64,000 nucleotides of DNA. Origin: Heterotrichella gracilis. Its lineage: Eukaryota; Sar; Xanthophyceae; Tribonematales; Xanthonemataceae. This document shows, one piece after another, positions 878 to 63,824 of the stretch. The translations under genes were made by a program, and so were the position numbers. The stretch spans positions 184,560 to 248,559 of the forward strand of contig JAULBX010025718.1 of assembly GCA_032358255.1 (NCBI GenBank), read 5' to 3'. The notes beneath the pieces were generated by a model. It saw only the letters and a list, made by a program, of their open reading frames with translations, made no database searches and was not told the DNA's origin. The first letter of the stretch is position 1. Each line of letters opens with the position of its first letter.

Positions 878-2976
878 GTGATGAGCAGCAGCAGCCCCTC
901 TACATCCAGGCCTACAGCGGGGGCGCCACCACACCGCCGCCAGCCATTGGCGCCCCCAACCCCATCCCTGGGCCCTGCAAGCAGCTGCTGTACAGCTACC
1001 AGTTCCCCGTGTGCGACGAGCAGCAGTGCGACACCCTAGGCGAGGGTTCCTCCCCTTGGCTGCACCCCTACAACACGCACTTCCTCAGCCTGTGCTGCAA
1101 GCTGTCCTATAACCACATAGGGACGGTCAGGGATACAACCACCGATCTCTGGGGGTTCACATGGCTGTCTGGTGGGGTGGTGAAGCAGGCGCCTGACATG
1201 CCAGCAAGGTCCCTGAAAGGTATGAGCTCAGTAGAAATCCGTGTGGCTGACTCAACCTTTTTGCACACGTGGTAGAAGGCTTGTTGCTGCCTGAACTTTT
1301 CCCCGCAAGGGCTTTGGCATAGTTTAGTATCCAGCTGGAAAGCCATCTATTGCTCTCCATCGCATGGACTTTATAATAAGCTGGAGTTTGGCTTGAAAGC
1401 ATTCCTTTTTTTATTGTGACTGTATGGGTTTGCAGTATATGCACAGTGCTGCATCCCGCACGTGCCTGTGCTGCTGTACACTAGCACCATGTGTAGGTGC
1501 ACATTAATAATGTGCTGAAACCCCCCCTTTACCCCTTCCCACAGGCCAACGCCCCAGCACACCCCCGCGCACCGCGCCAGCCCCAGCCACCTCCTGGCAG
1601 CCCTTTGAAGTGGGATGGTTCGCCATCGCCAACACCCAGGCGGTGGTCATCTGCTTCAACGCGCACAACTCGGTGCTCCAGCTCCTGGAGTGGTTGGCAG
1701 GCACTGGAGGCAGCAGCGGGCTGTCGCGCCCCCGCCCGGGGTTTGGCAAGGTGAACGACGCGCTGTTTGAGGTGCTTTTTAAGCAGCCCTGCGGCACGCT
1801 GGGGGACGCGCACGGGCAGTGCGTGTATGCCGCGGCCACGCAGGCCATCGACCACGCGCCGCTGTCGTGCAAGGTGTTCCTCACAGGTGAGGGCAGGGGT
1901 ACGGGAGGGCATGGCAGGCTGTCTCTCTCTCTCCCTGTCTGCCTCGCCCATAATGAATGCCCCATGCTTGAGATGAGGCGCGTGGCCATTTCATGCTTTT
2001 GGGAGCTAAACCCCTGCTTTATTGATGGCATTTCCCTATGGTCTTTAGAGAAATGCCATCTCTGCCATTCTTTAATTTGCTTGTTTGGTGTATACACGAA
2101 GAATATCGGGGCGGGCTGGTAGATGGCAGCTTGTACCATATTCGTGTACAAATTCCTGTTTATTTCCTCGCAGGCCATGGCATCGGAGGCTGCCTGGCAG
2201 TGCTGTACGCACAGGCCCTGGCTGCAAAGCGCCCCGAGCTCAAGCGCAGGGTGGAGGGCATTTTCACCTTTGGTCAGCCCAAGGTGGGGGATGCCACCCA
2301 TGTGGAAACGTTCCTCCACAGCTATGGCAGCCGCATGTGCTTCAGGTTTGTGACGGAGGGCGACGTGGTGCCCAGCCTCCCCAGTTCCCCCGAGTACCTG
2401 CACCTCCCTGGGCAGACGCATGTGGTGGTGGCGGATCAGACAGGTAAGCGGGCGGCGGCCGACGGGGCAATGTATGGTGTGTGGATGGTGATCATGAGGG
2501 ATGGGGATCGGAGGAACGCTTTTCAAGTAGCGCAGTTCCCCTTTCTGCCTGGGTTGCAATGGCTGGACATGCACAGGGCCACTTAGGGGCCATTCCAGAG
2601 GTAATTTTGCATATTGACAATGCATTCCTACTCCCATTGCATTTGGATTTTTGCATCTACTTTCCTTTCCATTCAATTTCCACTTCTTTTTCATTTCACG
2701 CATGCCATCTTGACAATGTTCGTTTCAACTCCATTTCCATTTCCATCATCACACCATAACCTGTATCCGGGTGCACATGCAGGGGCAGGGCGGCCGCTCC
2801 CGCACCACCGGCACTCCAGGCTCTGCGAACCAAACCGCACAGGCGCCCCCATCCATGCCAGCATTTGCTCCTCACTGCTGCTCTACCTGGTGAGGAGGTG
2901 CATGGCAGCGGTGCTTCCCGGCCTGGTGCACCACATGCCAGCGGAGTATGAGCACCATTTGCACCGGCATCTGTAG
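878..2976 (+). CDS. Class 3 lipase-fold protein, probably non-catalytic (5' end missing)
   Basis: Four exons join in phase: 878-1219, 1545-1886, 2174-2443 and 2783-2976 (TAG), all GT-AG. The product has the Lipase_3 alpha/beta-hydrolase layout: an N-terminal segment before the core, the strand region with VVICF, the elbow region, the strand FGQPKVGD and an acid region GDVVPSLP that matches the catalytic Asp neighbourhood, followed by a His-containing segment. The family elbow GHSLGG reads GHGIGG here, formed across the 1886/2174 junction, so the nucleophile Ser is Gly. The RGT oxyanion segment after the first strand is also replaced by NAHNS. Family membership follows from order and spacing of motifs. 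Loss of hydrolase activity is an inference. A decayed copy of the last exon follows the stop. The N-terminus lies upstream of 878 and is not resolved. Confidence 0.75.
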
Positions 2977-2985
2977 CTGGGGTAT

Positions 2986-3017
2986 GGTTTAGGGTTTAGG
3001 GCTTAGGGTTTAGGGTT
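2986..3017 (+). repeat. Interstitial telomere-like repeat (TTTAGGG)n
   Basis: About four units of TTTAGGG, one degenerate (CTTAGGG), lie ten bases after the lipase stop. They sit exactly between the true terminal exon and its decayed copy, the arrangement repeated elsewhere in the window. Confidence 0.9.
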
Positions 3018-3093
3018 CATGGCAGCGGTGCTTCTCAACCTCGTCCACCACCATGCCCGCAGAGCACCAGCTGCACAGGCACATGTAGCTGGG
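3018..3093 (+). repeat. Decayed copy of the lipase terminal exon
   Basis: This stretch repeats 2901-2981 (CATGGCAGCGGTGCTT through TGTAGCTGGG) with substitutions and small indels. It includes the copied stop codon region. It lies outside the coding sequence and is presumably 3' UTR or intergenic. Confidence 0.8.
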
Positions 3094-4895: not shown

Positions 4896-4900
4896 ATTAT

Positions 4901-11798: not shown

Positions 11799-11813
11799 GA
11801 GCGCGCTGCAGCC

Positions 11814-14800
11814 ATGAGCGGCCAACACCTGCTCGAGCAGGTTTCTGCATTCTGCAAGGATACTCTCAAGATCGAGGAGCTGCCAACAGAGGTGGCGGAC
11901 AAGGTTGCGAGGTGCGTATGCATGCATCGCCACCCTTTCGCGGCTGCTGGGCGTCTGGCAGGGTTTCGTGCAGTTTTCGCAGTGCTTTACCCCTGCTGCA
12001 AGAGTGTTGCATCCTAGCACTGGCATTCTCCTTGCTCTACCACCCTCGCTCTGAATTTTAGTGGTGAGCTGCACTAGAGGCGCACCCTCTGTACGCCTAA
12101 TGCTGCCACACTTTCAACCCACACCCCTGCACCAGTAAAGTGTGCCAGCACGTCCCGCCACACAGCTAGGAATAGGTGCTTCACTGCTCTCACGCCGCTG
12201 TTACTTAACCCAGCGGCGGTCAGTGGGTGTACTGACTGTGCACCTGCCCTCCGCAACCTTGCCTGACCCCCCCCTCCCCCCTTGCAGTGCGGTCGCGACT
12301 GCCCTCCAAGACCCTAGCCAGGAGGAAACCCTATTGGACCTGCTCACCGCCTACGCAGCCGCAGACATCCCGCCACCGGCCCTCAAGGCGCACATGGCGA
12401 CCCTACTCGAGGGTGCGGCAGCGGGGCCCAGCCAGGGGGAAAAAGCAGGGGTTGAAGAGGAGGAGGAGGCAAAGGTCGAGAGCCCAGTGCTCGACCCTTC
12501 TGCAGTGGAATTTGAGCCTAAGGTGTGTGGTGGTGGGAATGGTGGAGGGGGTATATGTGGTGCTGCACGTTTGACCACCGGTGCAGATGATGGCTTGAGC
12601 ATTGCCAGGATAGGGATGGCAGGTGGGTGGGCTGTCCCCGCCAGTTTCCCTGCCCTCCTACTGCACCCCCACCTTCCATCCACCGCCAACTCCCCCGCCC
12701 ACCTGTTGCCGCGCCTCCCCAAAACATGGATGCATGTCTACCCCACCGCACCCTCTCCCACCCACCTAATTCTCCCCCCTTGCCGCTCCCCCACAGGCCA
12801 ACGAGAGCGTCCACCGGGTGGCCAGCCTGCATTCGCACCCCATCGACGCCTTGGCGGCAGCCCTGGATGATGATGAGGAGGACGCCATGGCATTCAACTG
12901 GAACGTGGCCGCCAAGGAATTTGTGCCCACCTTCTCACCCGCACCCAAGGGGGCCACCGCCAATGGGAGCCACAAGGAGGCTGGGGAGGCGGAGGCTGCG
13001 CCAGCCCCTGCCACAGGCGAAGCAGCGCCTGTCGAAGCCAAGGGGTATAACATCAAGGCCATCAACGGGGAGGTTATCAATGCTGCCGATGCCGCCGATG
13101 CCAGCGCAGCCCCTGCCAAGGGGGAGAAGGGGGATGTGCCCTCCCTGCGCCCGGGCCACCAGAGCCCCGTGTCGCACCTCCACCTGGACCTCCAATCCAC
13201 ACCCACCAGCGACAGCGACACCCCCTTGGACCCTGCGGTGGTGGATGGGGGGGATGTGGCCGCCTATGGCGCCTACCACCCCGCAGCCTACGAGGGCGCA
13301 GCGTACTATGCCGAGGGGGGGTATTATACAGCGGATGGCACGTTCTGGGCGTACCCGCCCCAGGCGGCGGGGGCGGGCTATGAGGGGTATGGATACCCCG
13401 CGCAAGGGTTTTTGCCCGACGGCACCTACGGCACCTACGAGGGGTATGGCGGGTATGAGGAGGGCTATGGCGAGGCGAACGGGGAGGTGTATGCTGTGGA
13501 GGGGGCTCAGGAGGAGTATTATGATGACCAGGTGGGTGGGGGACTGGTACCTTGAGCATCTGTTTGCCTCAGGTTGCTCGAGCTCATTAGTGCACGCATA
13601 GCATTGCGCATCCCCATTTCTTTCTTTCTCGCTAGTCAGCTGCATGCGTTCCAGCAGCACAACCAGATTGGCAGCCTGCACTACATGCCTTGCGGCAGAC
13701 ACATAATTGACCACCAATGGCGGCCTTGCATCAGTGCATGGACAAAGCACACCCCTCCCCCTTGCCGGGCTTCCCGCACCCTGCATCTCCCTCACCACAT
13801 CATGTGCCCGCCCCTGTCCCTTTCCCATTGCCCACCCGAACCATCCCCCCAACAGTGCAAGGAGGGAGCTGCTTGGCGCCGCATGTGCAAGGCTGACTGC
13901 TAATCTGGCTGCATTGCTGGAATGCATGCAACGAACTAACTAACCCCACCCCCCACCCCACTTGCAGTGCGATTGGCAGCGCCAGGAATCAGTTAGATGG
14001 TTGACCATCAATGGCGGCATTGCATCAGTGCCTGAACAAAGCACCCTTTGCTGGGGTGCCTGCACCCTTCATCCCCCCTGTACCCTCCCCATTGCCCCTC
14101 GCCAACTCACCCCCCATCTCCCACCCCCCGCAGCGCGACTGGCAGCGCCAGGAGTCCACCGCCAAGCTGTGGCTGCTGTGCTCGCAGTTCAGTGGCTACT
14201 CACGTGCCAGCCTGCGCGCGCTACTGGCCGAGCACAATGGGGACGTGGCCCTCACCTGCGAGGCCCTGCTGCAGCTGGAATTCGAGACGGGGCCTAAAAA
14301 GCGCCCCCCCGGCGCCAGGAAACCCCCCGCAAATGACACCAAGGTCATTTTGACGGAGGAGGACTTCCCTGCGCTGGCGGGCACCCCTGCGGCTGGGAAC
14401 TCGCCCAAGGCGGCCTGGGGGGCGAAGGCCAAAGGGGAGAATGGGGCGGTCGCAAACGGGGAGGGCAGCGTGGAGGTTTCGGCAGTGGCGGAGCCGGCGT
14501 CGCCGCTGGCGGCGTCACCGGAAGGTGTGTATGGTGGCCCTGTCTGGATGGTGTCTGCCTGTCTGCACATGGCATAAGCGGTATGTCATTAGCATGGCGG
14601 TGAGCCACGCATGCATGGCTCCCACAGCGATGGCATGACCTGCTGCTCCATGCAATTGCAGGGCGGCACAATCACGAAACGTGCCCCACCACGTTTCTTC
14701 AAACCCTAAACCATTAAGCCACAACTGTGTCCCCGTTTTACAATATCTGCTGACACCTCGCTCCCCACCCACAGCCCCGCCCCCCACCCCCTCCACCACC

Positions 14801-15926
14801 GCATCCCCCACCAAGCTCTCCTTCAAGGCCATCGTGGCAGCCACCCCACCCACCCCCTCCCCCGACGCACCCACCACCACCACCGCCGCCGCCACCCTAC
14901 CACCCGCCAAGCCCCGCGCCAAGCCCACCACCGCCACCAATGGCGCATCCACAGCATCCACCAAGGCGGCTGCTAAGGCGGCCCCATGGGTCGCCACTGG
15001 CGAGGCTGTTTCGGCTCAGTATGAGGAGGCCAGGGGGGAAGCCAGGGACCGTGCCAGGCTTCGCAACCAGTGCTTCATGCAGGCCACGCAGGCGTACCTG
15101 GCAGGTGGGGGGCAAAACCTAAACCCTAAACCCTAAATCTAGACCTTTTCTGGCGTACCTGGCAGACCAGGTGGGCGTGCATACTGCAGCATATTCAAGC
15201 CTAATTACGCCAGTGCTTCATGGGCAGCAGGCTCCCTCCCTCCACATCTGGGATTTCATTGACCTCAAACACCCTAAACCCTAAACTCATACCCTCTTCC
15301 CCCAGGCAACAAGGCGCTCGCCAAGGAGCTAGCTGCCAAGGGGCGCCACCACGCCGAGCTCATGCACAAGGCGCACGAGGTGGCCGCTGAAGGCATCTTC
15401 TCGGCCCGGAACCCGCCCCGCGCCGCCTCCCGCCCTGGGACCGTGTTTCTTGATCTGCATGGGCTGCATGCCGCTGAGGCGCTGAAGAAGCTTGGTGAGG
15501 AGCTTGAGAGGGTGAAGGGCAGCTGGAAGGTGAAGGAGGTGCTGGTGTGTGTGGGCACTGGGCACCATACCAAGGTGGGTGCGGTGGGGATGGTGCGTGG
15601 GGGGGCGGAGGGGGTTTGGGTGGGGAAGGGAGGTGTTGGTGTGTGTGAGTACTGGGCACCATACCATTGTGACGGATCTAGGGTGGCCCTATACCCCATA
15701 CCCTAAACCCAACCCTGTCTACCATGGCCACCTGACTCTCGAGCATCTTCGCTGGTAGTGAAGGTTGATTACCCCTTTTCTCCTCCCAAACCCAAACCCT
15801 AACCACCCGCAGGGCGCCAAGACCCCCGCCCGCCTGCCCGCCACCGTTGAGAAGTTCCTGGGGGAGCAGAACCTGGTCTACTCCACACCCCAGCCTGGGC
15901 TCCTGGCGGTCGCCATCAAGCACTAA
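11814..15926 (+). CDS. PAM2-motif, DUF1771 and Smr domain protein (CID5/6/7-like)
   Basis: Seven exons join in phase: 11814-11911, 12288-12522, 12797-13531, 14134-14524, 14775-15104, 15306-15574 and 15813-15926 (TAA), giving 723 aa. An N-terminal helical region is followed by two PAM2-like motifs, LDPSAVEFEP and NWNVAAKEFVPTF, that would bind the MLLE domain of poly(A)-binding protein. A low-complexity Ala/Pro and Tyr/Gly-rich linker comes next, then a CUE-like helical segment (LRALLAEHNGDVALTCEALL). The DUF1771 helix pair starts YEEARGEARDRARLRN. The Smr domain carries DLHGLHAAEAL and the GTGHHT/ARLP signature. Plant proteins with this architecture (CTC-interacting domain group) link RNA turnover with PABP. 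Smr suggests nucleic-acid binding or nicking, which is inferred only. Introns contain exon-edge copies. Confidence 0.9.
13668..14133 (+). repeat. Two decayed copies of an exon start inside intron 3 of the Smr gene
   Basis: The true exon 4 starts CGCGACTGGCAGCGCCAGGA at 14134. A near copy (TGCGATTGGCAGCGCCAGGA) after its own CAG lies at 13968, and a weaker one (GATTGGCAGCC) near 13670. Both are followed by a shared block (GACCATCAATGGCGGCATTG and its variant). Spacing is about 166 and 300 bp. Confidence 0.85.
15113..15232 (+). repeat. Telomere-like units plus copies of the preceding exon end (Smr gene intron 5)
   Basis: Immediately after the donor at 15105 come three CCCTAAA-type units (15113-15137). 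A copy of the exon end (TGGCGTACCTGGCAG, 15151-15165) follows, then a copy of the slightly earlier exon part (CCAGTGCTTCATGGGCAGCA, 15210-15229; original from 15068). A second telomere-like cluster lies at 15270-15288 before the acceptor. Confidence 0.9.
15632..15666 (+). repeat. Copy of the Smr exon 6 end inside intron 6
   Basis: GGTGTTGGTGTGTGTGAGTA and the following CTGGGCACCATACCA repeat 15538-15572, the 3' end of the exon that encodes the GTGHHT motif. Identity is high, with a few substitutions. Confidence 0.9.
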
Positions 15927-21495: not shown

Positions 21496-21987
21496 CTGTG
21501 GTGCAGAAGGGTTTATGTGGGAATTACTCACTGCATGGTGTCAAGGTCACCTTGCCAGACTGGAAGCAGCACCGATGTTGACACGCCGGACAGAACAAGG
21601 TTCGGATAAGACAAAGATGCGACCTATACACTGACCCCTTCCTACAGGCTTCCAGTTTATGGCATAGTGTTCTGTTCCGGGGACGATGTGGTGTTCTGAG
21701 CGTCACCCTTGATGGCGGGTTTTGGGTGATGGCATCCGCATGTGCATAGCCGTTCCAAGATCGTCCCCCACCTTCAAGTTTCGTGCAGAGACGTCAGTCC
21801 AGTCGGGAATGGTGTCTCCCATTGGCGGTACGATACGCTCTGAACCCCACAACCCAATCGTCAAGTCCGAGACTCTCGGCGACTGTGTGCACACGCAGAG
21901 GGGTTGCGGTCACGTGTGCAGCGCAGCTGGCGGCCAGGAACACCAGAAGATGTGTGAGGCTTGTGGAGGCGAGAGTGGCGTCTTTCA

Positions 21988-22232
21988 GTGCGCTGAACCC
22001 TGTTCCTTTGCTGTTTAAGGTGCCCGTGTTGCGGATGTGGGGCTGGCAGGCAAGGCGGAACACTGCAATTGGGGTGGCAGACAGAAAAGTGCCGGTCTTA
22101 CTGGACTGTGAAGTACACCAATATATGCGCTCCTGAAAGACAGCAGTACATACGCTCGGGTTTGCTCTCTGTTATTGGCATCTGCTGACTCCCGCATCCG
22201 ACATGCCCCAACACTATATGCATGCATGCATT
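21988..22232 (+). repeat. Dispersed repeat, copy 1 (about 245 bp)
   Basis: Shares a colinear block with 24570-24797: CTTTGCTGTTTAAG, GATGTGGGGCTGGCAGGCAA, GGCGGAACAC, GGGTGGCAGACAG, GGTCTTAC, GGACTGTGAA, ending in a TGCATGCATGCATTG run. It might be a non-autonomous mobile element. No clear terminal inverted repeats were found. Confidence 0.75.
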
Positions 22233-24190: not shown

Positions 24191-24569
24191 CTGGTGCACC
24201 ATCCGCTGTAGCATGGGGAGTGAGCCCGACCCTCCTCGTGCTGCTGGCATTACCCCACAGTTGCCTGCCGCGAAGGGCCAGGCGAGGCCTGCATGGTGCA
24301 GGAACAATGCCTGGGGTCCGCACGGTGCTAGGACCCAATACAACCTTGGTAACTTGCATGCTTTGAACTTGAGGGCTGTAGAGCAAAAGACTGTGGTTTG
24401 AGAAGGCGTGGCTCTCTAACTAGACAGACAACCGTGCTGTTTGGGTTTCGTGTCTTGTCTGGTGGGCATGCACAACTGGCTGCCCTGCTGTTTCTCTATA
24501 TTGGTTTCGGTTCCCGAGTGACTTATCCTCTCGTTGGATATTGGTGGGGGAAATCGGCGACTGATAGTA

Positions 24570-28152: not shown

Positions 28153-28176
28153 ACATCCTAAGGGGAAGTAGGGCAG

Positions 28177-33193: not shown

Positions 33194-43207
<10,014 letters not shown>

Positions 43208-45027
43208 GCTGCCTGGAGCTGGGGTGCAGGGCCTCAGTGGAAAGGGTTCCTGGCAGCTGCGTGGGGTCCACAGGTGGGAGTGGGTTTTTCAATATAGGGG
43301 TGATCACAAGTCCCTCATGGGTGCCACTGATGCCGCAGTGGGCTGGGTTTAATAGAGCCCGTGGGGCGAGGGCAGCAAGGTTGGAGAGGCCAGGGAGTAG
43401 AAAGGGAGCATATAAAGCTTTCAAGTGCTCACAATCAACGGTGTGTGAACGTTCCTTGACTCCACTTGCTGCTGGAATTTCACAGCTGGAGTTCAAGAAA
43501 CAGCCAACATGCATGCACCGCAAATCTGGGAGCTTATCCGCAGCACCGCAATCGGACGAGGTTGCGAATAGTGGCTGGTAATTATGCTGCAAGAAATATT
43601 GTGCCAATGCTGGTGGGCCCCTGCCCGCACACTGAAGTGGCACTAACGGCGACCAGGCGGGACAAGGGCCTCAATCAGAGAACCAGGGCCAAAACATCGC
43701 ACGGAACCACGCGAGTGCATATGATTATGGGCAGAGGTGACAGCCTTGGCAGCATTGCTTGCGCAATTTTAAAACATGCATATGCTTCATGGCGTCATGG
43801 TGATAACTACAACATGCATAATTTGACATCACTGCCCTGCGTTGGGCCCAATTCTTCCACACACACACTACCATGCGTGAAAACCGTCGTCGATACCGTA
43901 CAAGATCGGCCAGAAGCGAGGAAACGAGTAGGAATCCACGAGGAAGATTGAAGAGGTTTAAAAGGTGCAAACATGAGTGGCCAGATCTGCTTCCGATCAA
44001 AACACCACCATACTGCAACCCCGCATAAATACACAAGATTTGGCTGCTGAATCAACGTACCCCGTGCCGACGACGATGCCTTGTGAACGCCCCAGGTGCC
44101 TGCCTGTCCTGGTCCTGTTCCAACGGGTAGTAGTCCTCCCGCTCAGGATTCTGGTTCAAAAGTGCAGGCACACGCCCAAGTGACTCCTTCCTGAAATACC
44201 AACCGCGTGGTACTCCTGCCGGTTATAAAACCTGTGCGCAGACAGGCACGGCTTTCAGAACTGCCCCTTGTTGGGCACACCATGGCTGGAAACGAGTTTC
44301 AAACCAGGCAGGCACCAGGGGGAAAGGAAAAAGGGTGTTGGTCCCTCGAAACGGCGGAATCGGCGGGAGGTCACGGGGTCTCGAGACGGGATTATAATCC
44401 GCCACGTTGGCAATCGGCGGGAAAAAGCGGGAAAAAGGTAGGCCAGCCAATGAAAGAACGGCGACTGGACTGGCTTTCCAAGAGAGGTGCGTATCACCTG
44501 CAGCTAGATATCTTTGGGCCGTCCACCAGCGCGTTGATACAGCAAGCCGTGCACTATCCTTGGGTGCGGGTTGAGGCTGGACATACTTCAGCTTTGCCAA
44601 AGGCAGATGAGCACGTTGCCGTTGTAGCTGCCGGACGCCTGTGTCCCAAGCAGCGTTTCCAGGTGCCCTTGGGGCGGACGGCTGCAAGTCAAGCTTTTTC
44701 AGCTTTTGAACCCAGTTGCTGCACACACAGCGAGCAATCCAAGGAAGATGACAGGCCCAATTGGAGTGATGTCGCAGCCTTCGTGTTCTATGCGGTGTGG
44801 GCCGTCTGTGCCTGCCCAACGGGCCTCGTTTCGTCACCACACCCCATTCGGTGAGAGCCTGGATATACCGCTCTGGAAACTCTTGCCTGCAAGGCCTACT
44901 GCGTTGCTGGTGCACCCAAGTCGCAGTTGGGTCTCTTTACGTGTTTTGGGCACGAAGGGAGCAGGTTTGGGCGTTGCATGAGCACAGGAGAACCGGTACC
45001 GGGGGCCGGCTGTTGTCGACGTCAGAT
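43208..45027. other. Divergent intergenic region, ISWI / DUF3110 genes
   Basis: About 1.8 kb between two divergent starts. Two long open frames overlap on opposite strands at 44207-44915, but neither has family resemblance or splice support and I do not call them. E2F-like sites are listed separately. Confidence 0.4.
44416..44434 (+). promoter_or_regulatory. Two adjacent E2F-like sites
   Basis: GGCGGGAAA (44416-44424) and GCGGGAAA (44427-44434) match the plant/algal E2F core TTTCCCGC read on the other strand. Related GGCGGGAGG and GGCGGAATCGGCGGG words lie just upstream at 44353-44372. They are about 1.2 kb from the ISWI start and 0.6 kb from the DUF3110 start, so which gene they serve is unclear. 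Confidence 0.4.
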
Positions 45028-48092: not shown

Positions 48093-51000
48093 ATGGCGAA
48101 AGGCGAGCTCGAGGAGGCCTCAGCGGCGTACGATCGGGAACAGTACACGAAATGGAAACAGCTGATCCCGTTTCTGTATGACTGGTTTGCCAACCACAAC
48201 CTGACGTGGCCATCCCTCTCGTGCCGGTGAGAGTACGAGTCATCATCTGCAGTGCTCGTTGCAACTAACTGTCTGCTTCCTGCACTGTGCTCGCGACCCG
48301 TGCTGACTGTCAAACCACCGACACAGGTGGGGTCCCAGGATCGAAGAGCACACGTTCAAGTTCAAGCAGAGGCTGTACCTCTCAGAGCAGGTGAGCGCAT
48401 GCATGCATATGTGCCATTGGCATGCACCCTGCAAAATATGCCAGAACACGTCATCCGGCTGCCCACTTGGCGATACTTCAAGGTCTGTGATGCGGTGCAA
48501 CGTGACCGCTTTCGATTTGTGCAGACTGACGGCACCGAGCCCAACAAGCTCACCATCTACAATGCCGATGTCTGCAAGGTGAGAGAGCCCTAGGGGCATG
48601 AAACACACCAGTGGGGAAATTATCCACTCTTCACCTCTATTCATTTTGTTACAGTGGGCTCGAATTAAACCACCCCGCTGCCTGGAGTCCAGTGCATGTC
48701 ACGGCCTGTCACTTGTGCATCGCCATCCCCACACGCCACACCACAACAGCAACCTGCGCGTGCCCTGCATGCACACCGCCACCAAATACCCCACCAGCAC
48801 CATCAGTAGCACCACGCCACCCCTCGATGCCCACACAGCCTATCCAGTGCACACCCTCTCCGCCAAACCCTAAACCCTTACCCCCCTTGCAGCCGCGCGT
48901 GGCGGCCGCCGAAACCATCTCTGGTTTCCAGGAGCAGCACAAGAGCCCGTACATCAAGCCATACAAAACAATTCTGCACGACGGCGAGGTGCGTTGCACA
49001 CGCCTGGCTTGAACACCAAACCCTGAACCCCAACAAAAGCATCCTGCACCCCGCCTGGTCCAACCGGGGCAAAAATGTAAATACTACACAATGTTTATCA
49101 TTGTAATTGCAGTATGTTTATAAATTCAGACTGGGTAATGAACAATGTCCAGGATGGAATATCCGACATGAGAAAACCATTTGCCTGAAGTGTTACCATG
49201 CCGCCCTTCAATTTTGTGTTCATGACATCAAAGCGAAGGGCTCCACCAGCACAGCGCCATGCGTCACACCCAATTGCTGCCTATGCATGCGCCATCTGAC
49301 ACCACTTTGTGCCAACACTGGTCATTTTCTCGCCCGGCGCGCTCGTGAATCCCAGCCACTCCTGTGGAATCATCCCCATACACGCATTGGTGGTTATGCT
49401 GGGGGCCCATATCCGTCCCCAGCTTGGTCTCCAACCCCATCACCCCCCATGCCCATCCCCAGGTGAACAAGATCGGCGACCTGCCCAAGAACCAGAACAT
49501 CATCGTGACCCACACAGATGCGCCCCACCTCAACGTGTGGAACGTGGACACGCAGCCTAACAGGGCGGGGGAGAGGGTACGTGGAGGCGTTGGTGGTGGT
49601 AGTGGTGGTGTGTGTGTGTGTGGTGGTGGAGAGCATTTTTGTGGAATGAGGATGGGGTAGGGCTTCATGTACCAAGGGATGGGCTGCATTAATCAATGGT
49701 GGATCTGGATGCTCGCCTTACACCTTGTGTGTGTGCGCATATGGTGGGGCGTGCGTGAAGAGATGATTGGGTGCATGGTATCAAATTGATATCCTGTGTC
49801 GCCGACAGAAGTGGTGACGATGCATGCGCGTGTGTTTTCCACTGCGCAATATTGCATGTTGTCCCCAAAAGGACCCCTTTTTGCACGCATCTCCCATCGT
49901 TGTATGTCACGCCCTTGGACCTCCACCTCACCCCCTCGCCGCCCCCATCCACTGTGGGAGCGCCCCAAAGGGTCACTAACCCCTCATTGATTGCCGGCCC
50001 CCCTGCCCCTCACCCCCTGCCCCCCACCCTTCCCCAGGGCCCCTCCTCCAAGGTGTTCTCCCGCCCCGATCTGCTGCTCAAGGGCCACGAGGACGATGCG
50101 GAGTTTGCGCTGGGCATGTGCGACGGAGCGCCGTTCGTGGCTAGCGGGGGGAAGGACACCTGCGTAAGGGGAAAACTTTCAACCCTAAAGTGTAGACCCT
50201 AGACCCTACACTGGCATGTTTGCGCTGGGCATGTGCGTCGGGCGCCATTTGTGGCCAGCGGGGGGAAGGACACTTTCCTAAGTGCAAACACCAGACCCTA
50301 CACCCTGGACTGATGGCAGTGACTTCGCTGGCCATGATATCCCCAGCCCCCTCCCCTGGTAGCAACCGGGTTCCACCACGTATATTTCCCCACCACCCCG
50401 CACCTCCCCCTGTCCAGGTGGTGGTATGGAGCCTGGAGGATTACGTGAGCGGGCTGTCCAGCGGGGGCCAAAGGGGTGACGGAGAGGGGGAGTCGCCCTC
50501 CCTCCAGGCCAGGCACGTGCTGCGGGGGCACTCCAAGACGGTGGAGGACGTGACCTTCAAGCCAGGCAACTCGGCAGGTGTGATTCTTGGATGACAGCCG
50601 CATTTGGCCATGGTTGCTTTGCACGGATGACTGTTGACATGGCTGGATTGGAAGTCGTGTGGTGAAAAAGCTAGCGTAGGGGGTGGTTCCGGGTTGGCTG
50701 GGGATTGTGGTCGAAGGGTCTGGGTTAGGTTGTGCATCTGGGGTGGGTGGGCAGCCACTGAACTCCGCTCCAACCTCCCCACCGCTTTGCTTTTGCACCC
50801 CCTGCCATTCCCTCCCCACCCCTTCAACCCCACCCCCGCTCCCCCAGAGCTGGCCAGTGTGGGCAACAACCCCTCCTGCTCTTGCAGGACACATGCATGC
50901 AGCGGGGTGTTGAGGGTTGGGTTTATGGAGCACATACATACATGCACCGCTCCATTGCACCATTACACCCCATGGCCTTGCAGATCACCTCCTTTGACCC

Positions 51001-54000
51001 CACGCCCCACTGTCACAGAGCTGGCCAGTGTGGGCGATGACTCCAACCTGCTCATGTGGGACACCCGCAGCGGTGTTGCGCCAGTGCTGCGGGTGGCGCA
51101 GGCGCACGGCACCGCCGACATGCACTGCGTGGATTGGAGCAGGCACAGGGAGCACTTGCTGGCAACAGGTGGGGGGTCGGAGGGGTGTTGTGGTGGTGGT
51201 TGTGGTGTGGCGTCGCTGCTGGGTGTGGCGCACAGACATGTACTGTGTGAGTCGTAGCAGGCACAAGGGGCATCTGCTGGCTCGCAACAGGTGGGAGGTG
51301 GTGGTGGTGATGGTGATGGTGGACACTGTGCAATGGGGTAAGGGGTTTGCACAGGGACCACGTGTGCCCCTGGGTGGAGCACCCCACTGGCAATAGGGGC
51401 TGGTGGGGGGCTAAAGGGGTAGGGAATCCAGCATGCTATTCAATGGAAGGTCCTCGGTGACCACCACCTTGCAACTCGATGGAACGTGATCCTAGACATG
51501 GGCACCCTCATGCAACTTGATCCCACATGGTCTTAGCCATGGGCAAATTTATGCATGGGCATGACCATCCTCATGCAACGTGATCCAACATGATCCAAGG
51601 CATGACCACCCTGATGCAACGTGGTCCCAGGCCTTGTGAACTGGTTGGACAATGCCAAGGGGTGGTGTGTCATGTGCAGGGTGCGCGGGGGGGAGCCTAC
51701 GGGTGTGGGACAGGCGCCAGCTCAGCACAAGCGCCACCTCACTGCCACTGCACACGTTCGACTTCCACACCGAAGCCATTCTGCGGGTGGGTGCAAAGTC
51801 CCAAATTCCCTGGACGAACCCTAGGCAAAGTCCTTGCCCCCATGATCCTCACCCATGCCCTAATTCTTTGCCCCACATCCCATACCCAAGCCCTATACCG
51901 TGGCCATACCCTCGCACCCTCCTCCTCTCACACACACAGACCACCGCCACCACTGCCGCCCACACCACCTCCTCTTCCGATCCAGGTCGAATGGTCGCCG
52001 GACCTTCCAGATGTGGGACCCTACACTCTCAACCCTAAACCCCTTCTTGCAGGTTGATGGTCACCTGACCTTACATGTGCAAAACCCTAAACCACTACCC
52101 CTTCCTGCAGGTGGAATGGTCCCCCGACCTCGCGGGCGTGCTTGCATCAGGAGGCGAGGACAGGCTGCTGTGCATATGGAACTTAGATAGCAACAAGGCG
52201 CTGGCAGGGGCAAAGCCAGGGGTACCTCCTCAGCTGTTCTTCCAGCACTGCGGCCACCGCTCATCGGTAAGCGGATGGGTTTGGAAATCGCCGGGAACTT
52301 TGGATTGTTTTGGTGTTTCAGAGAGGGGTCGGGGCTTTAAAGTGTAGTGTTTAAAAACAGACACAAGGCGCTGGCGGTGCCAAGCCGGGGGTGCTGCCTC
52401 AGTGTTCTTCCAGCATTGTGGCCACCGCTCATCAGTAAGGGTTTAGGGTTTGGAATGATAAGCAATGCGGCTTTCCGGGTACCGTGTCCTGACGAGGTGT
52501 CCAGTTCTTAGGTTTTAGAGGTTAGGGACAGGAAAACCGCTGGGGGGGCAAAGCCAGGGATGCATCCGCCAGAATCAACTACAGATGAGCGATTACAGTG
52601 GTTATAGATTTGGGGGCCTAGATTGAATCTAAAGCGTCCCCTCAGCTGTTCTGACTTCCAATATAATCCTCACACTCAAGAGTGCGTATCCATGTATATG
52701 CATAGGAGCATGTTTCTCTGCGCAGCACCGACTGCATCCTCCCAGTCGCACCACCAACCACCCTTCCCCCCCCTTTCAGGTTGTCGACTTCCAGTGGAAC
52801 CCCCACGACCCCTGGACCCTCATGAGTGTGTCCAACGACGTGTCGGATGGCCAGGGCGGCGGCACCCTGCAGATGTGGCGGGTGAGCGACCTCATCTACC
52901 GGCCAGAGGCGGAGGTGCTGGCGGAGCTGGAGCAGCACAGGTGAAAGCCCTAACAAAACCCTGTAAACCCTAATGATAATCTGTAAAAACCTTGTTAGAA
53001 CCCTGAAATTGTGGGGCTGGCTGGCCTTGTGTATCGGCCAGAGGCGGAGGTGCTGGCGGAGCTGGAGCAGCACAGGTGAAACCCTAGCGGAAACCCTATA
53101 GAAGCCCTAACAAAATTCTTGGAGTTGTGAGTGTGGTTGACCTTGTGTACCAGCAAGATGTGGAGGTTCTGGTGGAGCTGGAGCAGCCCAGGGTAAATAT
53201 ATCGTAAAAGCCCTGGGGAAACCCTAAGGAAGGACCTCCGGCAACCATGTGAAAACCCCTTTGATAATTGATCCCTCCCCAAACCCATGTTTAAGCCTGA
53301 ATGGAACAGCATCCTGATAAAGCCCTAGTATAACCCAACCACAACCCTACAGGGACTACATCCTGTCTGGCAGAGAAACAAACCCTAACGGCCCCTAATG
53401 CAGTCGCCAGGCATCCTTTAGATAACCCCTACCACAACCCTCCTGCGCCACTAGGAACTACATCCTCACTAGGCAGGAAGATAAACCCAAACATTCCCTA
53501 ACCCGACCCCAATAAACCCTACAGGGACTACATCCTCACTGGCCGGGAGACAAGCCTGGCCCCCCTGCCCCCCACCGCATTTGCCACCCCTGCACAGCGA
53601 GCGGATGACAGCCTCAAGGACGATGGGGAGCCGTCCTCTGCGGCGGCGCCAGGCAGTGGGGAGGGTGGCGGCTTTGGGGCGTTGGAGGGGGATGAGGCGG
53701 CGGGTGGTGCGACGCCTGAGGAGGTGCGTGTGCATGCAGCCTTGTGGTGTGTGTGCTGTGGTGTGGTGGGTCAGTGCTTGTGCCATTGGGGTGGTACAGG
53801 TAATGGTACAGGTACAATCAACAAACATTATGGCGGACAAATGTGCACCTTTTTACAGTGGCGTGTGGAGGGTTTCCAATGTTCATGTTGCCATCCATGC
53901 GCAACAGAATCATTGCCGCTGTTTGACGTCCTGTGTGTGATGCAGGGGGGCGAGGCAGCGGAGGGGATGGAGGGGGTGGAGAACGGCACCAGTGAGGATG

Positions 54001-54134
54001 TGCTCGCTGGAGCGGTGGTGGTTGAGGCGGGGGGTGGGGGTCTAGAGGGGGGCGAGGCTCAGCCCATGGAAACCGATGTCACCACAGATGGCGAGCCTAC
54101 TACAGTGGAGGAACGGCAGCCTGATACAATCTGA
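48093..54134 (+). CDS. MSI4: MSI4/FVE-type histone-binding WD40 protein
   Basis: Thirteen exons join in phase to 569 aa: 48093-48226, 48327-48390, 48525-48578, 48893-48988, 49463-49576, 50038-50163, 50418-50577, 51019-51168, 51680-51786, 52111-52266, 52780-52940, 53525-53723 and 53946-54134 (TGA). The N-terminal helix and CAF1C/RBBP4-type motif (YTKWKQLIPFLYDWFANHNL, then TWPSLSCRWGP) precede a seven-bladed WD40 series: THTDAPHLNVWNV, LLKGHEDDAEFAL, SGGKDTCVVVWSLED, VGDDSNLLMWDTR, LRVWDRRQL, SGGEDRLLCIWNLD and FQWNPHDPWTL. The end DLIYRPEAEVLAELEQH matches plant MSI4/FVE rather than MSI1. Such proteins bind histones in deacetylase and Polycomb complexes. An unusual acidic, Gly/Glu-rich tail of about 125 aa follows. 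Introns hold at least nine exon-edge copies. Confidence 0.95.
50207..50280 (+). repeat. Copy of MSI4 exon 6 end (intron 6)
   Basis: TTTGCGCTGGGCATGTGCGT, CGGGCGCCATTTGTGGCCAG, CGGGGGGAAGGACACTT repeats 50103-50160. Telomere-like words (AACCCTAAA, GACCCTAGACCCTA, 50180-50211) lie between the original and the copy. Confidence 0.95.
50846..50886 (+). repeat. Decayed copy of MSI4 exon 8 start (intron 7)
   Basis: CAGAGCTGGCCAGTGTGGGC, AACAACCCCTCCTGCTC repeats 51016-51053 (CAGAGCTGGCCAGTGTGGGC, GATGACTCCAACCTGCTC), 170 bp ahead of the true acceptor, and keeps an AG before the copied sequence. Confidence 0.95.
51215..51300 (+). repeat. Decayed copy of MSI4 exon 8 end (intron 8)
   Basis: GTGTGGCGCACAGACATGTA, GTCGTAGCAGGCACAAGGGG, CATCTGCTGGCTCGCAACAG, GTGGGAGG repeats 51091-51176 with substitutions, including the donor site. 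Confidence 0.9.
51984..52110 (+). repeat. Two decayed copies of MSI4 exon 10 start (intron 9)
   Basis: Copies at 51985-52009 (AGGTCGAATGGTCGCCGGAC) and 52050-52076 (CAGGTTGATGGTCACCTGAC) precede the true start CAGGTGGAATGGTCCCCCGA at 52108. Each is followed by CCCTAAACC-type words (52031-52040, 52084-52093). Confidence 0.95.
52362..52440 (+). repeat. Copy of MSI4 exon 10 end (intron 10)
   Basis: ACAAGGCGCTGGCGGTGCCA and TGTTCTTCCAGCATTGTGGC, CACCGCTCATCAGTAAGG repeats 52193-52271, including a donor-like GTAAGG. A weaker third echo lies near 52540-52570. The first copy follows a TTTAAAGTG spacer about 95 bp after the true donor. Confidence 0.9.
53030..53490 (+). repeat. Copies of both edges of MSI4 intron 11
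   Basis: Two copies of the exon 11 end lie at 53031-53081 (ATCGGCCAGAGGCGGAGGTG onward to CAGCACAGGTGAAACC) and 53146-53195. Two copies of the exon 12 start lie at 53350-53378 (CAGGGACTACATCCTGTCTG) and 53454-53482 (GGAACTACATCCTCACTAGG), ahead of the true start at 53525. AACCCTA/AAACCC words separate the units. Confidence 0.95.
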
Positions 54135-55101
54135 TACAAACCTGACTACACATCAACACAAGGGATAGCCTTCCGCGACGCATACACCGCTTACCTGGGC
54201 GAGGGAGCGGAGGGGAGGGAGTGGGGTGGAAAAGGGCGACAGTAGATGCTGTGGTGGTGGTGGTGGTGGTGATGGTGGTGGTGGGGGGGGGGGGAGATGT
54301 GAGGCTTGCCGATGGAAAGTGCTGGAGGCACAAGGTGACGAGCCCTGACATGGGAGGGCAACAGGCGGAGTAAAGTGTGCACTACAAAGCATGTTGGTGT
54401 TGGTGATCGTGGTGAACAACATGGAGGTGGTTATTCATGCCCGCATGCCATTCATCCTCATGCTTAAACTTCTTTGGTCATACGCAATACGGGCAACAGG
54501 TTTGGGCGGTTCATAGAGGCTCCATCAACACCAAAAACAGTAAGGGAGGGTGTTTCTCGTCCTGTCCATCTCCCCCATGCCAGTTGTAACTCATTTCCAC
54601 GCTCTGCAAATCCCCATGGCAAATCCCCACCAAGGGTCTGTACTTTGGGTGAATAATGGGCTTCATGGTTGGGGTTGCAATCTGGGCGACAAGCTGCCAA
54701 ACGTGTTTCCACTTGCAGTTTCCCTCACAGTTGTAAATGGAACCCCAGAACTAACCCCCGCATCCTCGATAAAACTATCCTTTAGCGGCCTTCAACCCCT
54801 TCAGCCGTCCCGTCAACAATAAGCGGGCACACACTGGTAAGGAGCAGATTACTGAGTGTATAGTGTTGCATGTTTACGGATGTACGTTTGCTTTCACGAC
54901 AACCTTTCAAGCTCAAGTGTCCCTTGGATGGATGGATGCAATGCATGCATGCATATACATCTCTCACCCTTGTGCATGTCCACGCCACGGCGGCTTTTGC
55001 CTACTACCACACCCAGGCTTGCACCTACCTGTCCTGCAGGACGCGCATAACTACTAGGTCTTCCACCTACTCCAGGGTTCACCTGAACCCAAACCACCAC
55101 C
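54135..55101. other. Intergenic region, simple repeats
   Basis: This flank holds a GGT/GGTGGT simple repeat ending in a G run at 54248-54296 and a GGATGGATGCAATGCATGCATGCAT run at 54929-54955 (given here by position; key word CATGCATG). No gene is supported. Confidence 0.5.
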
Positions 55102-58100
55102 ATGGATCATCCAAACGTACACTCCTTGCCAGCAGAAGTGCTCCAGCTTGTGTTTGGCCGCCTCCACCTGAAAGAGCGCCTGGGGGTTGTGCCCCTGGTG
55201 TGCAAGTCTTGGCACCAGCTGAGCATAGGGGCCTCTGCCATGTGGGCAGAAGTCTATGTGAGTACCTTCCCTTTGAGGCGGCCTTTGAACTGCCTGTGGC
55301 ATCGGCCGTGCGCATAACTGACCATAATCATAACCACGAAAAGGGAGGCAGGGCTATGGCACTCAAAGTGCCTCCATGCGTGCTATTGGTGTTTGGGGAT
55401 AGGGTATGTGGGTATCTGTGGAGGAGCATCTCATCTCATCTCTCTGAAGGGCTGCACACTGGGTTGCAAACGTGTATGTCAACCCTCTCAAAGGAAAAGA
55501 GCACATCACCCGCTCTTTACCATCATTTGCTATCTAAATAGCGCAACCATAGCGCCTGCCCCGTTTGCCACATGCATTTGTGGGCTAATATCAACGTGAG
55601 TAGCTGTAGGTGCCTTTGCACGCGTATTGCTGTGTGCCCACTGCCCATAACTACAGCCATATAAAGCAGATAGGGCACTCAGAGCAAGGTTAAATCCCCT
55701 CTGTGTATTGGCTGTGCGTCCCGTGAACATAGCTTAAACAGCTCTCTGCAAGGGGACTAGAATAGGACGTCCTCCTTCTCCCTGTGCTTCAGCGCCCCCT
55801 TTGCCATCTGTGTCTGACCCCCATGTGTGTCTGACCCCCTGAGACTGGCGACCACCTGTGCACCCCGCAGCCCTTCAGGCTTGGAGTGACCATAGAGATC
55901 AGCAACGCCGGTATGGCTCGACGCCAAAGGAACCTGGCCATGTTCGTCCTCTGGCTGCAACCCCGCATGCCAGGTGCATTGCAAAGATGTGCCTTTTGAA
56001 CCCTAACTCTTGACTGCCAAACTTTGCTGCATGGAAGGGTTTCAGTCAGCATCCCACACACTGGCGCCACTCAGATTTGCCCTGGCGCTACTTACAACGC
56101 GTTGAATGTATTTTCCACTCAGTCACTTGTATGTAGGTGTGGTGTGCCTGCATGCATTTTCAAATTGCCAGCTGTTGCTTGTGCTGTACCCCATCGTGTG
56201 CAACTAACTGCACCAGCTTTTCCCTAGCTGAGGCACATATGCCTACCCCCCAAAACGACCTCTCGTCTTTGCCCCTGCGCCTTTAACCTAAACTCTACAC
56301 CCCTAAACCCTTCATCGGGTTCTCATCCTGGCTGGTGCGCCACATGCCAGGTGTGCAGGTCCTGATGCTACCATTTGACCTTGGCAGCGGCGCCAAAGCT
56401 GCTCTGCTGGAATCTGCGGGCAGCCTGGTTAACCTGTACTTTGGCAGGGCAGATTTTGCCGCAATGCCCTCAATCACCGCCTGCACCGCACTGACCTCCC
56501 TGGATTTGGAGGTGAGCGTGTGGGATGCGATAGAGAGTGATTTGATCAACGTCCCTGTGGTTCTGGAGTCGCTCGGGTCCCTCTCCAAATTGGTGGGGCT
56601 GCAGCAGCTATTGCTGAGAGTGAGGTTCCCATACGATTGGCCATGGCTTGATGAGACGGCCATGCGGTTTCGACAGGCAATGGCCAACAGCTTGAGCAGC
56701 CTGACAACCCTCACCTCTCTGACGCTGGATGGCCTGCCCTCCCCTGCCGATCTCGACGCCTGCTCCCGCCTGGACAAATTTGAGAACCACTCAGACCACA
56801 TCCTGGCAGCCATGGAGGCGACACATGGCAGCCAGTACCCGTTGCCAGTCTGCACCAGCCGGAACGTCACGCACTTTGTGTTTCACGAGGAAACGCGTGC
56901 AGGGGTTCTGATGCCGCAGCTGAGTTATCTGCCCCACGCACTCCCCCACCTTGCTCAGTTGGAGTTAAATGGGTTCATGCTGTCTGCTGGGGAGTTAGCA
57001 CTGTCTTCGCTCTCCTCGCTTTCCACCCTCACCTCCCTCTCCTTGCGCCTGCTCTTCCCTCGCCTTGACCACTAAAATGAAGACCCAGCAAACATGCTTT
57101 TGGAGCTGATGCCAGCTTCAATCGGCCGCCTCACGCAGCTGGAGGTGCTTTATGTGGAGTACGATCTGCATCACTGGGAAGGTGGATACGAGCTCCACTC
57201 GGAATGGGCACTTAATGGCCACATTGCCAACCTCACACGGCTTGGGCAGCTCAGCCTGCGGTTGGACGTGGCGAACGGGGCTCCGCCTTCAGTGGTGCAC
57301 CTCCCGATTGACATTACCACCATGGCCAGGCTCCAGGTGAGGGGCTGCATGCAATTGGTGCTAGTAGGTCTGTAGCTAGTTTCCCTTATGCATCCTACGC
57401 TTGAGCTGCAAACCCAGCAGTTGAGGTGACATGGGCATGTGCATGGGTCGTTCCTGTCTGGTGCCTGTGTACGGGTAGCCTGATCAAGCTTTCCACGTGC
57501 AGGCTCCTTCCTGGTAATGCAGCCTACCACCATTGTGGAATCCCAGCACCATGCTGAGCCACTTGATTTTTTGCAGGTCCTGGTGCTCAAGGCACACTCA
57601 AATCGCCGAGACGTCGAGCCACAACTGCTGTGCATCACAGTGCCAATCCCAGGAGGGCTTGTTGGTGTGTCGCTTCCAGAACCACGCAATGATTTAGAGG
57701 GCAACATGTTGGAAGCTGAAGACGCCTGCTACCTCTTCGTACACAGGTACAAAGAGTGGTGGATTAGAAGTGGCTGGTGCTGCGCATGCATGCCTGTTGC
57801 TCACATGGTTGTAGTACTGGATGGCATGTACACCATGTTAATTGTTTACAAGTGGATTTTTTCATCACTGCGGTATGCCACAACGTTGGGGTTGGAGGGT
57901 TTTTTGTTGAATGACCACAGTTTGCACAGGAGTACGGTGGAGGTTGATCACCAGGAGCAGGAGTTGGACTGGCAGGCAGTGGCAGAAGTGCTGGTGTGGA
58001 TGTGGGGTCACCTGAAGGCTTGCCCTGATAAAGTCTGCATCAAGGCGCCTGCTGGCCAGTTGGAGGCTGCTGGCGGTGTCTGGGTGCATTCCTTCACTAT

Positions 58101-61597: not shown

Positions 61598-63824
61598 ATG
61601 GATCCTCGCACCACCATACATTCGCTGCCGGATGAGGTCCTGCAGTCCATCCTGGGCACCCTCAGCCTCGAGGACCGGCTGGTCAGGGTGCCCCTGGTGT
61701 GCAAGGCATGGAACCAGCTCAGCAGGGGGCCCTCTGCCATGTGGAAGGACGTGGAGGTGCAAGCACACCTTGCAGGACACACCCTTGGCAGCACACCCCG
61801 TGCACATGCATCACATGTCCTCCAGAGCATGCCTTGCTGTGCAACCCCTTGCAGCACGCCCCATGCAGCGCAACGCCTTGCAGCACATCCCTTGCAGGGT
61901 TTGCCAAGCCCCCGCGTTGACCCACTACACTGCTGTCTTGGAGGGGGTTGGAAGGATAACAGTGTATATTTCGCACCCCAGTGCTGCCTTTGACAGCGTC
62001 ACCAGCACTTGGCAGAAAGGTCCTGGTGGCCTGCATGGGGCAGGAGGGGCAACATGCCCGTCCCCTTTGGCAAACTGTCCAGGCACCCCTCCTTTATAGC
62101 AAAGCCACACCATAATACCACACCTCACCCCCGGTCCCCTCTGAATGATCCCACACCTCCCCTCCCAACTTCCACCCCCACCCCTCTATGCACAAAACCA
62201 CCGTGGCCACTACCAATCCATTGCCCCCCCCCACACCCTCACCCTCGGGCCCAACCCACCCACCCCACCAACCATCCCCCACCCCCACCCTTGCACAGAT
62301 CACCACCGCTTCGTTCCGGCAGCGGTACGCCGGGCCCCCGCCCGGCCGCCCCCACCGCTCCCTCCCCACCCTCCCCGAGCTGACGCGCCTCCTGGCACCA
62401 CACATGGGGGGGGTGCGCAACCTCACCCTGCCCCGGGAGCTGCTGCGTGATCGGGTGCCCCACATCCTCACAGCAGCCACTGGACTGCGCCACCTAGACA
62501 TGCAGCTGGAACAGGTGGAGGCGATTGCTGCGGCGGCCACCTGCACCCACCTCACGCACCTCAAGGTGGGGACAGTGACATGGGGCTACTAGGGGCGATG
62601 GACTAAGAGGAGTAGAGTGGTGACGGGTTGAAGATAGTGAGTAGAATGCGTCACTGTAGTATAGCCAGGGTCAGCGGTCTACTTGAATGCCCTGCGCCAC
62701 CTAGACATGCAGCTGGAGCAAGTGGAGGCCAGTGCCGCTGCGGCCACCTGCACGCACCTCACTCAGCTCAAGGTGGGGGCGGTGTTTAAATGGGTTTAAG
62801 ACTGGCAATGGGTTGAGAGGTGTAGAGTGGCGGTTGGTTAAAGGTAGTGAGTATAATACGTTCCAGGTGCACAGCCATATTAGCAGTCAGTCCCCCATGC
62901 TATGCCCCCCCTGGTCAGGCAGCTTGGGTAGATGGATGGCACTGCAGGGGCGGCGATTGGCACCCTCCGCACGCAGCTCAAAGAATGTATGTAGTTGGGT
63001 TGTAGGTTTAGGGTTTAGCTGGTGACAGCCAGTTCGTCACAAGTGTCCAATTATATTGTACAGCCAACTCAGCAGCCGTCCACACTGGGTACAAGGAAAT
63101 GCTTCAAGCCTTTGAACACCCATGAATGCGTTGCCAACTGGTAGATCAAATAATCAAGTCTGTAGCGTAATGATCTTGCAGTTGGCCCTTACAACCTTGC
63201 CACGGCCTCGTGCAGGTGTGGATACTGCACCCCGAGCGCGGCGGCGGCGGCGTGCGGGAGCGCGCCGCGGAGCGCCTGCGCGATGCGCTGTTCCACCTGC
63301 GCCTGCTCACCAGGCTGCGCCACCTGGACATCGCCCTGGCAACCACCATCGCATCCTGGGGCAACCCCCGGGACCCCCAGTTGTACCAGGACATGACCTC
63401 CTGCCTCACGTGCCTGACGGCGCTCACGTCGCTCCACCTGGCGCGCCTGGCTGCGCCCCCCACGCTGGCCTGCTTTTCACATCTCAAGGAGCTGCGGTTG
63501 GTGGTGGGGGCGCCCCAAATCCCCGGGAGCAGGGCGGCGGATGCGGGGTGGCTTCTGCGCACCGCGCCCCCCTGCGCAACCCTCGACCGCCTGTCCATTA
63601 CCCTCACCGAGCCCTGGGGGCTGCTGCCGCCGCTCGCCGCCCTCCCCTCTGCGTTCCCCCTGCTGTCCCACCTGGGCCTGGTGGGGTTTCTGGACCCTCC
63701 CGAGGGTATGGCGGCGCTCACCCCGCTGGCGAGACTGGCGCACCTCACCTCGCTGGCGCTGCACCTTGTGGAGCAGTACGCCATTCCCGATGGGGAAAAG
63801 GAGGAGGCGCGGCTGGTTCCAGAG
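61598..63824 (+). CDS. F-box/LRR gene E (3' end beyond the window)
   Basis: Exons 61598-61756, 62299-62565 and 63216-63824 join in phase; the last ends at a GTACGT donor, so more exons lie to the right. Exon 1 is an F-box: TIHSLPDEVLQSILGTLSLE, DRLVRVPLVCKAWNQLS, PSAMWKD. Exons 2-3 are leucine-rich repeats (LTRLLAPHMGGVRNLTL, LRHLDMQLEQVEA, LTRLRHLDIALA, LTALTSLHLARL, LAHLTSLALHLVEQ). By family resemblance it is an SCF substrate adaptor; the target is unknown. Intron 2 contains two extra copies of the exon 2 end, the nearer one still an open reading frame ending in a GT donor. Confidence 0.85.
62600..63020 (+). repeat. Tandem copies of gene E exon 2 end plus intron
   Basis: 62692-62775 repeats 62484-62566 (CTGCGCCACCTAGACATGCA, CTGGAACAGGTGGAGG... 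CTCAAGGTGGGG) with about 90% identity, and the following GTAGAGTGG...GGTAGTGAGTA block is repeated too. A third, badly decayed unit lies at 62930-62985. Spacing is about 205-210 bp. A TTTAGGGTTTAGC unit closes the array (63006-63018). Confidence 0.9.

Follow-up and report, generated by a model that had tools for sequence, protein, structure and literature searches.

Introns in a stretch of the Heterotrichella gracilis genome carry decayed copies of the exon edges that border them, raising the question of whether these copies record the birth of introns or the growth of introns already present. The stretch, hereafter the window, comprises 64,000 nucleotides of contig JAULBX010025718.1. The copies lie in direct orientation and close to their own edge, are of mixed ages, decay in the manner of non-coding DNA, and arose when the intron already existed. 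We consider it probable that existing introns grow longer through repeated local duplications spanning exon edges.

Exon coordinates were predicted from the sequence alone using a home-made gene finder followed by hand editing. Trained on the same window, the gene finder yielded 9 genes and 84 exons; splitting and correcting its output by hand gave 12 gene models with 66 introns and 132 internal exon edges. In the first set of models, 65 of 66 introns had GT-AG borders. The sole exception, on our reading an ISWI border, was shifted three bases to 35245, where the sequence reads GAG/GTAAGG, the slash marking the border. Three exons called by the gene finder (34690-34710, 35053-35108, and 62713-62772) were removed from the exon set as copies, 43607-43612 was discarded, and 55133-55197 and 56359-57075 were masked as exon with their edges unused. 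Pfam matches were obtained for all eight proteins run: a class 3 lipase, an inositol monophosphatase, an F-box protein with FBO_C, a zinc alcohol dehydrogenase (SDH/ADH), ISWI (SNF2, HAND, and SLIDE), a DUF3110 protein, an RBBP4/MSI-type WD40 protein, and an F-box protein. The Pfam run covered the models other than Smr, LRR3, LRR5b, and LRR7, whose labels came from the initial annotation or were assigned by eye. Thresholds were chosen by us, the results describe one window, and pairs within one family are related and so non-independent.

Copies were specific to the bordering intron. Using a 50 base pair (bp) exon query and a score of at least 28, 22 of the 132 internal edges had a copy in the intron that they border, as compared to 0/132 when the reverse complement of that intron was used as a control. 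The intron flanking the opposite end of the exon gave matches for 2 of 108 edges, and the next intron for 0 of 108. Moreover, for 25/132 edges (50 bp), the match to the bordering intron scored higher than every one of 300 dinucleotide shuffles of that intron and every intron from other genes. Matching fell with distance from the edge, from 21/130 to 9/122 and 1/103 windows and then to 0/142 at 120 bp or more, such that the edge match faded within about 80 bp of exon. The same locality and orientation were evident throughout the window: at a score of at least 32, 4212 windows of 60 bp gave 239 local direct and 11 local inverted matches, with a mean of 7.5 distant direct matches. In a blastn self-comparison, 35 direct pairs and 1 inverted pair lay no more than 500 bp apart, and none lay at 500-2000 bp. 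With identity set at 80% or more, exon-derived copies in non-exon sequence totalled 1049 bases, equivalent to 6.0% of the 17537 exon bases; on the other strand, there were 0 bases of such sequence.

A total of 61 repeat pairs was found. Excluding a poly-G pair at 38799, these formed 41 families: 27 at internal edges, 6 at gene ends, 3 intron-only, 2 intergenic, and 3 exon-exon. Edge assignment covered 36 of 41 exon-bearing pairs, five gene-end pairs being omitted, and placed 21 donor and 15 acceptor pairs at 28 of the 132 internal edges. Among these 28, the edge at 53946 coincides with a gene-end family, and four others have copies that end before the edge or pass it by 1 bp. Copies included 18-121 bp of exon (one pair, at 53948, overruns its exon) and up to 251 bp of intron. 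Pair identity ranged from 0.69 to 0.93; that is, copies differed by 7-31%, indicating mixed ages. Three weak families, at 6748, 9008, and 20059 (identity 0.69-0.74), may be chance matches. These data bear out the initial annotation, which had described more than 20 cases of decayed tandem copying of the nearest exon edge, frequently together with some intron sequence, in introns and at gene ends, the copies being of differing age. The copies are direct and occur on both donor and acceptor sides as well as at gene ends. It had put their spacing at about 90-300 bp; the shortest period was 60-260 bp in 37 of the 41 families (range 29-355), and single pairs reached 417 bp.

The copies were unevenly distributed among genes. 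Copied edges numbered 10/38 in ISWI, 8/24 in MSI4, 3/8 in Fbox1, 3/14 in SDH, 2/12 in Smr, 1/10 in LRR3, and 1/4 in LRR8. No internal edge was copied in the lipase (0/8), IMPase (0/4), LRR5b (0/2), G6 (0/4), or LRR7 (0/4) models; the lipase and IMPase genes have a gene-end family only. Thus, the earlier statement that almost every gene is affected was too strong: ISWI and MSI4 together hold 18 of the 28 copied edges. Local direct repeats covered 20.6% of intron bases and 6.4% of intergenic bases.

We evaluated decay in 41 pairs, each having at least 15 columns aligning exon to non-exon sequence. Mismatches at the three codon positions were 123/753, 137/761, and 174/757 (16.3, 18.0, and 23.0%), codon differences comprised 98 synonymous and 230 non-synonymous changes, and 30 of the 41 pairs had a frameshifting gap or a stop. 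Judged from these alignments, the copies decay like non-coding DNA. In 19 of 26 pairs, similarity was higher in the exon part than in the intron part, which we read as constraint on the parent exon. The splice dinucleotide was retained in 23 of 31 copies, where 21.5 were expected from identity; copied splice sites are thus neither favoured nor purged. The splice-site score remained within the range of real sites in 19/31 copies.

The relative age of introns and copies bears on the question of birth or growth. Specifically, at least 5 bp of intron beyond the edge was included in 30 of 36 assigned pairs, and 31 copies aligned across the splice dinucleotide. Because the copies include the splice site and adjoining intron, the intron predates the duplication. 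Copied edges also adjoined longer introns (median 413.5 versus 314 for ISWI and MSI4; p = 0.014), and we read this, together with the greater age of the intron, as intron lengthening. The initial annotation had pointed to the gain of introns when AGGT-containing exon segments are duplicated in tandem (the Rogers model), by which introns are born from duplications. Direct exon-edge copies with splice signals do sit in introns, as such a process would have it. It also predicts that the end of exon 1 and the start of the intron resemble the end of the intron and the start of exon 2, and one intron, SDH 25810-26077, had 19 identities of 34 at this junction. However, own and mismatched junctions were alike, averaging 12.36 and 12.30 identities of 34, and 1 of 66 introns exceeded the 99th percentile of mismatched junctions where no more than 0.7 was expected. 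With the junction signature at chance and the copies running over the splice site into the intron, we regard intron gain by this route as very improbable. In the part of PMC4974935 drawn on here, duplication is likewise local and direct, includes exon sequence and splice signals, and leaves the protein unchanged; an 83-bp tandem duplication within an intron is mentioned there in passing. The present case differs from that account in that existing introns were lengthened and the junction signature of a new intron is lacking.

In the mechanism that we favour, stretches of approximately 60-400 bp straddling an exon-intron border would be duplicated in place, in direct orientation and repeatedly, presumably by slippage during replication or by a short backward switch of template during repair. 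The outermost splice site, beside the rest of the exon, would probably stay in use, leaving the protein unchanged. The duplicate lying further in, with its exon edge, splice site, and intron start, would then be free of constraint inside the intron and decay, and existing introns would grow layer by layer. As a lead only, telomere-like TTTAGGG tracts just inside the intron may mark the edges that are duplicated, either by stalling a fork or by marking a break. Some families are nearly clean head-to-tail repeats (36175-36496, 52864-53227, and 62471-62877), the layout expected of an ordinary tandem array (minisatellite); other families have an unrelated spacer. Among the 56 of 60 pairs in the spacer analysis, which omitted three exon-exon pairs and one with 4 edge columns, the spacer was shorter than 15 bp in 17, and 8 of the 39 longer spacers were homologous to an outer flank.

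Telomere-like tracts were concentrated in introns. The density of TTTAGGG/CCCTAAA heptamers was 11.6 per kb in introns, as against 5.4 in intergenic sequence and 0.6 in exons, and 187 of 271 intron hits lay within 75 nt of a splice site. On the coding strand, they were C-rich before acceptors (91 versus 8) and mixed after donors (46 versus 42); the C-rich tracts before acceptors may, we assume, simply represent the pyrimidine tract and branch site. A tract was present in the first 80 intron bases at 14/22 copied and 23/110 other edges (p = 0.00014), and near donors at 9/11 copied and 7/55 uncopied edges (p = 0.000013). Direct repeats flanked 22 of 76 intron tracts as compared to 11% of control positions, the controls being unmatched for distance to the splice site. 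No polarity rule was supported, tracts being G-rich outward at 12/15 copied and 17/22 uncopied tract-bearing edges. A test for tracts at the boundaries of the copies looked strong (p = 0.0002; p = 0.001 with same-gene controls) and was undercut by an artefact null in which unrelated introns of the same gene were joined. Observed and null tract richness were 8.22 and 7.78 on the parent side (p = 0.27) and 8.09 and 5.95 on the child side (p = 0.0007). As the boundary test was partly an artefact, we relied instead on the exon-only edge test. The association of tracts with edges may be causal, may be a by-product, or may reflect gene and position acting on both.

Several results weigh against recurrent duplication across exon borders as formulated above. 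A plain tandem duplication leaves no unrelated spacer, yet 31 of the 39 longer spacers lacked flank homology, and some young pairs (36739, 40057, and 34585) end abruptly; later deletions or a non-tandem short copy would be needed to account for these. The link to tracts failed at acceptors (5/11 versus 16/55; p = 0.24) and outside ISWI and MSI4 (1/6 versus 11/64). An in-intron shift test showed no enrichment of tracts at junction zones over the remainder of the same introns (p = 0.41), and of 34 intergenic tracts 1 had flanking repeats, a rate like that of controls. Further, an exon edge was present in 33 of the 38 non-exonic repeat families, the three exon-exon families standing outside this count. 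Simulated uniform duplication with detection bias gave 31-42% edge families over nine settings, and a simulation anchored at telomere-like tracts gave 35%. The excess thus lies beyond every uniform null simulated, and neutrality and detection bias leave it unexplained. Counted by windows, the edge was not special: a local match was found in 129/1319 intron, 44/516 edge, 36/877 exon, and 22/1398 intergenic windows, the intron windows including the copies themselves. In the simulation, scoring is applied directly to two copies; the real families, by contrast, were built from 60-bp seeds and merged. Given this mismatch, the window counts, and weak families that may be due to chance, the size of the edge excess is uncertain.

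The same results bear on two other accounts of the copies. According to one, neutral tandem duplication occurs uniformly, and edge copies merely stand out most readily owing to conservation of the exon. Neutral decay, the intron-only and intergenic families, and the similar match frequency of introns and edges by window count are consistent with it. We nevertheless consider it unlikely, as the proportion of edge families exceeds that simulated (P = 6.6e-9 at 41%) and repeat cover is approximately threefold lower between genes. According to the other account, the copies are scars left by the repair of breaks through addition of TTTAGGG repeats by telomerase, sometimes with duplication of the flank, as in mammalian interstitial telomeric sequences. 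Flanking duplications are recorded at 6/130 rodent and 4/25 primate insertions in the portion of PMC2246262 used here, and in both systems telomere-type repeats lie beside some duplications. In the window, copied donors are rich in tracts, and an array of 4.6 units of a TTTAGGG-type repeat (plus strand, 2986-3017, 32 bp) separates the two lipase copies. However, this lipase spacer also matches sequence behind the copy (p = 0.005), and the intron-side copy border is itself tract-rich relative to same-gene controls; tracts therefore seem to lie inside the duplicated unit. They are also mostly near intron ends, unlike the insertions in the cited portion of PMC2246262. In view of this and of the lack of excess at junction zones or between genes, repair scars seem a doubtful explanation.

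Nor do the copies resemble working exons, whether alternative or mutually exclusive. The plausible splice sites of 19/31 copies would suit such a role, as would the F-box/LRR copy at 62672-62877. The copies are nevertheless edge fragments, most with frame damage or a stop, and their mismatches are spread nearly evenly over codon positions, making a general coding role highly unlikely. Tandem exon duplication, which involves a whole exon with both splice sites and an intact frame, was rejected as a class on the same grounds, the LRR8 copy aside. Exon sequence recurs in introns of the same gene in the excerpt of PMC9013439 used here, where the copied non-exon share of exon bases is about 2% in human, 0.08% in fly, and 0.06% in worm; in the window, the recurring sequence consists of decayed edge fragments. 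Comparison of these values with 6.0% is rough, as exonerate was applied to exons there and local blastn here. An assembly artefact, through collapsed haplotypes or false joins, is extremely improbable. The window does contain a scaffold gap artefact in an ISWI intron (38799-38888: poly-G, ten N, ATG, and poly-C), but the pairs are spread along the window and not at this gap, they are diverged, and their exon parts are the better conserved. Finally, introner elements produce introns with repeated sequence. An introner or transposon origin was rejected: none of the 22 edges scoring at least 28 has an equally good match in an intron of another gene, and there are few distant repeats.

If border duplications are frequent, neutral, and layered, intron growth could be traced and dated from its individual copies, and the leftover decoy splice sites would constitute a natural experiment on splice-site choice. 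Gene finders are liable to call such copies exons, as on our reading happened three times here. Among the open-licence PubMed Central matches listed, no title or abstract opening reported layered exon-edge copies in introns. Chlamydomonas and its relatives have unusually long introns for compact green-algal genomes, with medians of 198-343 bp. Their determinants are described as an open question, and exon-edge copies are not named, in the part of PMC8226300 consulted. It is conceivable, though rather unlikely, that in this lineage telomere-like tracts at intron ends are points of breakage or fork stalling, that backward template switching into the exon duplicates the edges, and that this process, not transposons, is the main engine of long green-algal introns.

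Individual copies illustrate the range of layouts. The four examples singled out by the initial annotation were each recovered. In MSI4 (plus strand), for which it had given 50207 as a copy of 50103, the donor edge at 50163 lies in 50103-50187 and is copied at 50218-50300 (identity 0.89; the copy lacks the donor GT). In ISWI (minus strand), the donor edge at 40274, earlier given as 40273 with a copy at 40092, lies in 40229-40327 and is copied at 40057-40147, with the last exon base at 40093 and an exon-part identity of 0.98. The ISWI donor edge at 36464 (35953-36530) has tandem copies with last exon bases at 36360, 36273, and 36182, corresponding to the earlier 36361, 36273, and 36183. An older copy at 36015-36071 makes four, and one extra alignment at 36123 is doubtful. 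In the F-box/LRR gene (plus strand), where 62692 had been given for 62484, the donor edge at 62565 lies in 62471-62667 and is copied at 62672-62877 and 62903-62981. In the former copy, a frame of 20 residues persists together with both splice sites (62713-62772, called an exon by the gene finder), and codon differences are 9 synonymous and 3 other; this copy may thus represent a genuine second LRR exon.

Other ISWI copies include that of the acceptor edge at 34605 (34585-34629, copied at 34690-34734, identity 0.93), of which 34690-34710 was called an exon by the gene finder. The donor edge at 35245 (34826-35365) has at least two layered copies, 34838-34979 and 34979-35173, and 35053-35108 was likewise called an exon. 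The donor edge at 36862 lies in 36846-36921 and is copied at 36739-36812 (identity 0.93), and the acceptor edge at 40471 lies in 40408-40502 and is copied at 40520-40601. The donor GT has become GC in three ISWI copies, at 36182, 36360, and 36756. In MSI4, acceptor edges at 51019 (50945-51078) and 53525 (53415-53563) are copied at 50780-50912 and 53258-53395, respectively, and the acceptor edge at 52111 (51959-52130) has two copies with exon starts at 51986 and 52053, both with the acceptor AG. MSI4 donor edges are copied from 51085-51207 to 51217-51321 (edge 51168), from 52193-52286 to 52363-52455 (edge 52266; identity 0.87), and from 52864-52982 to 53000-53119 and 53120-53227 (edge 52940). 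The region of the last modelled MSI4 exon, 53948-54097, is copied at 54197-54344 (identity 0.80).

The remaining copies are on the plus strand. The end of the last coding exon of the lipase gene, 2897-2981, is copied at 3014-3093 (identity 0.84). In Smr intron 3, the acceptor region and exon start at 14134 gave rise to copies at 13666-13858 (of 13971-14136) and 13934-13990 (of 14104-14156), and the match within this intron outscored 300 shuffles as well as 60 introns belonging to other genes. The Smr donor edge at 15544 lies in 15505-15577 and is copied at 15598-15671 with the donor GT retained. The SDH/ADH acceptor edge at 25306 (25129-25334) has three upstream copies with exon starts near 25150, 25205, and 25237, and the exon start at 26536-26589 of the same gene is copied at 26334-26387 (identity 0.83).

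Rfam searches at gathering scores gave no match. Pattern searches with ISWI in viral contigs (2 pattern matches) and with MSI4 in genome contigs (15) and viral contigs (0) recovered no relative. Outside the gene models, a direct repeat links 21987-22194 and 24566-24773, which are 79% identical and 2.6 kb apart. GCATGCA and TGCATGC were among the most over-represented non-coding heptamers, with 44 and 41 occurrences where about 3 were expected.

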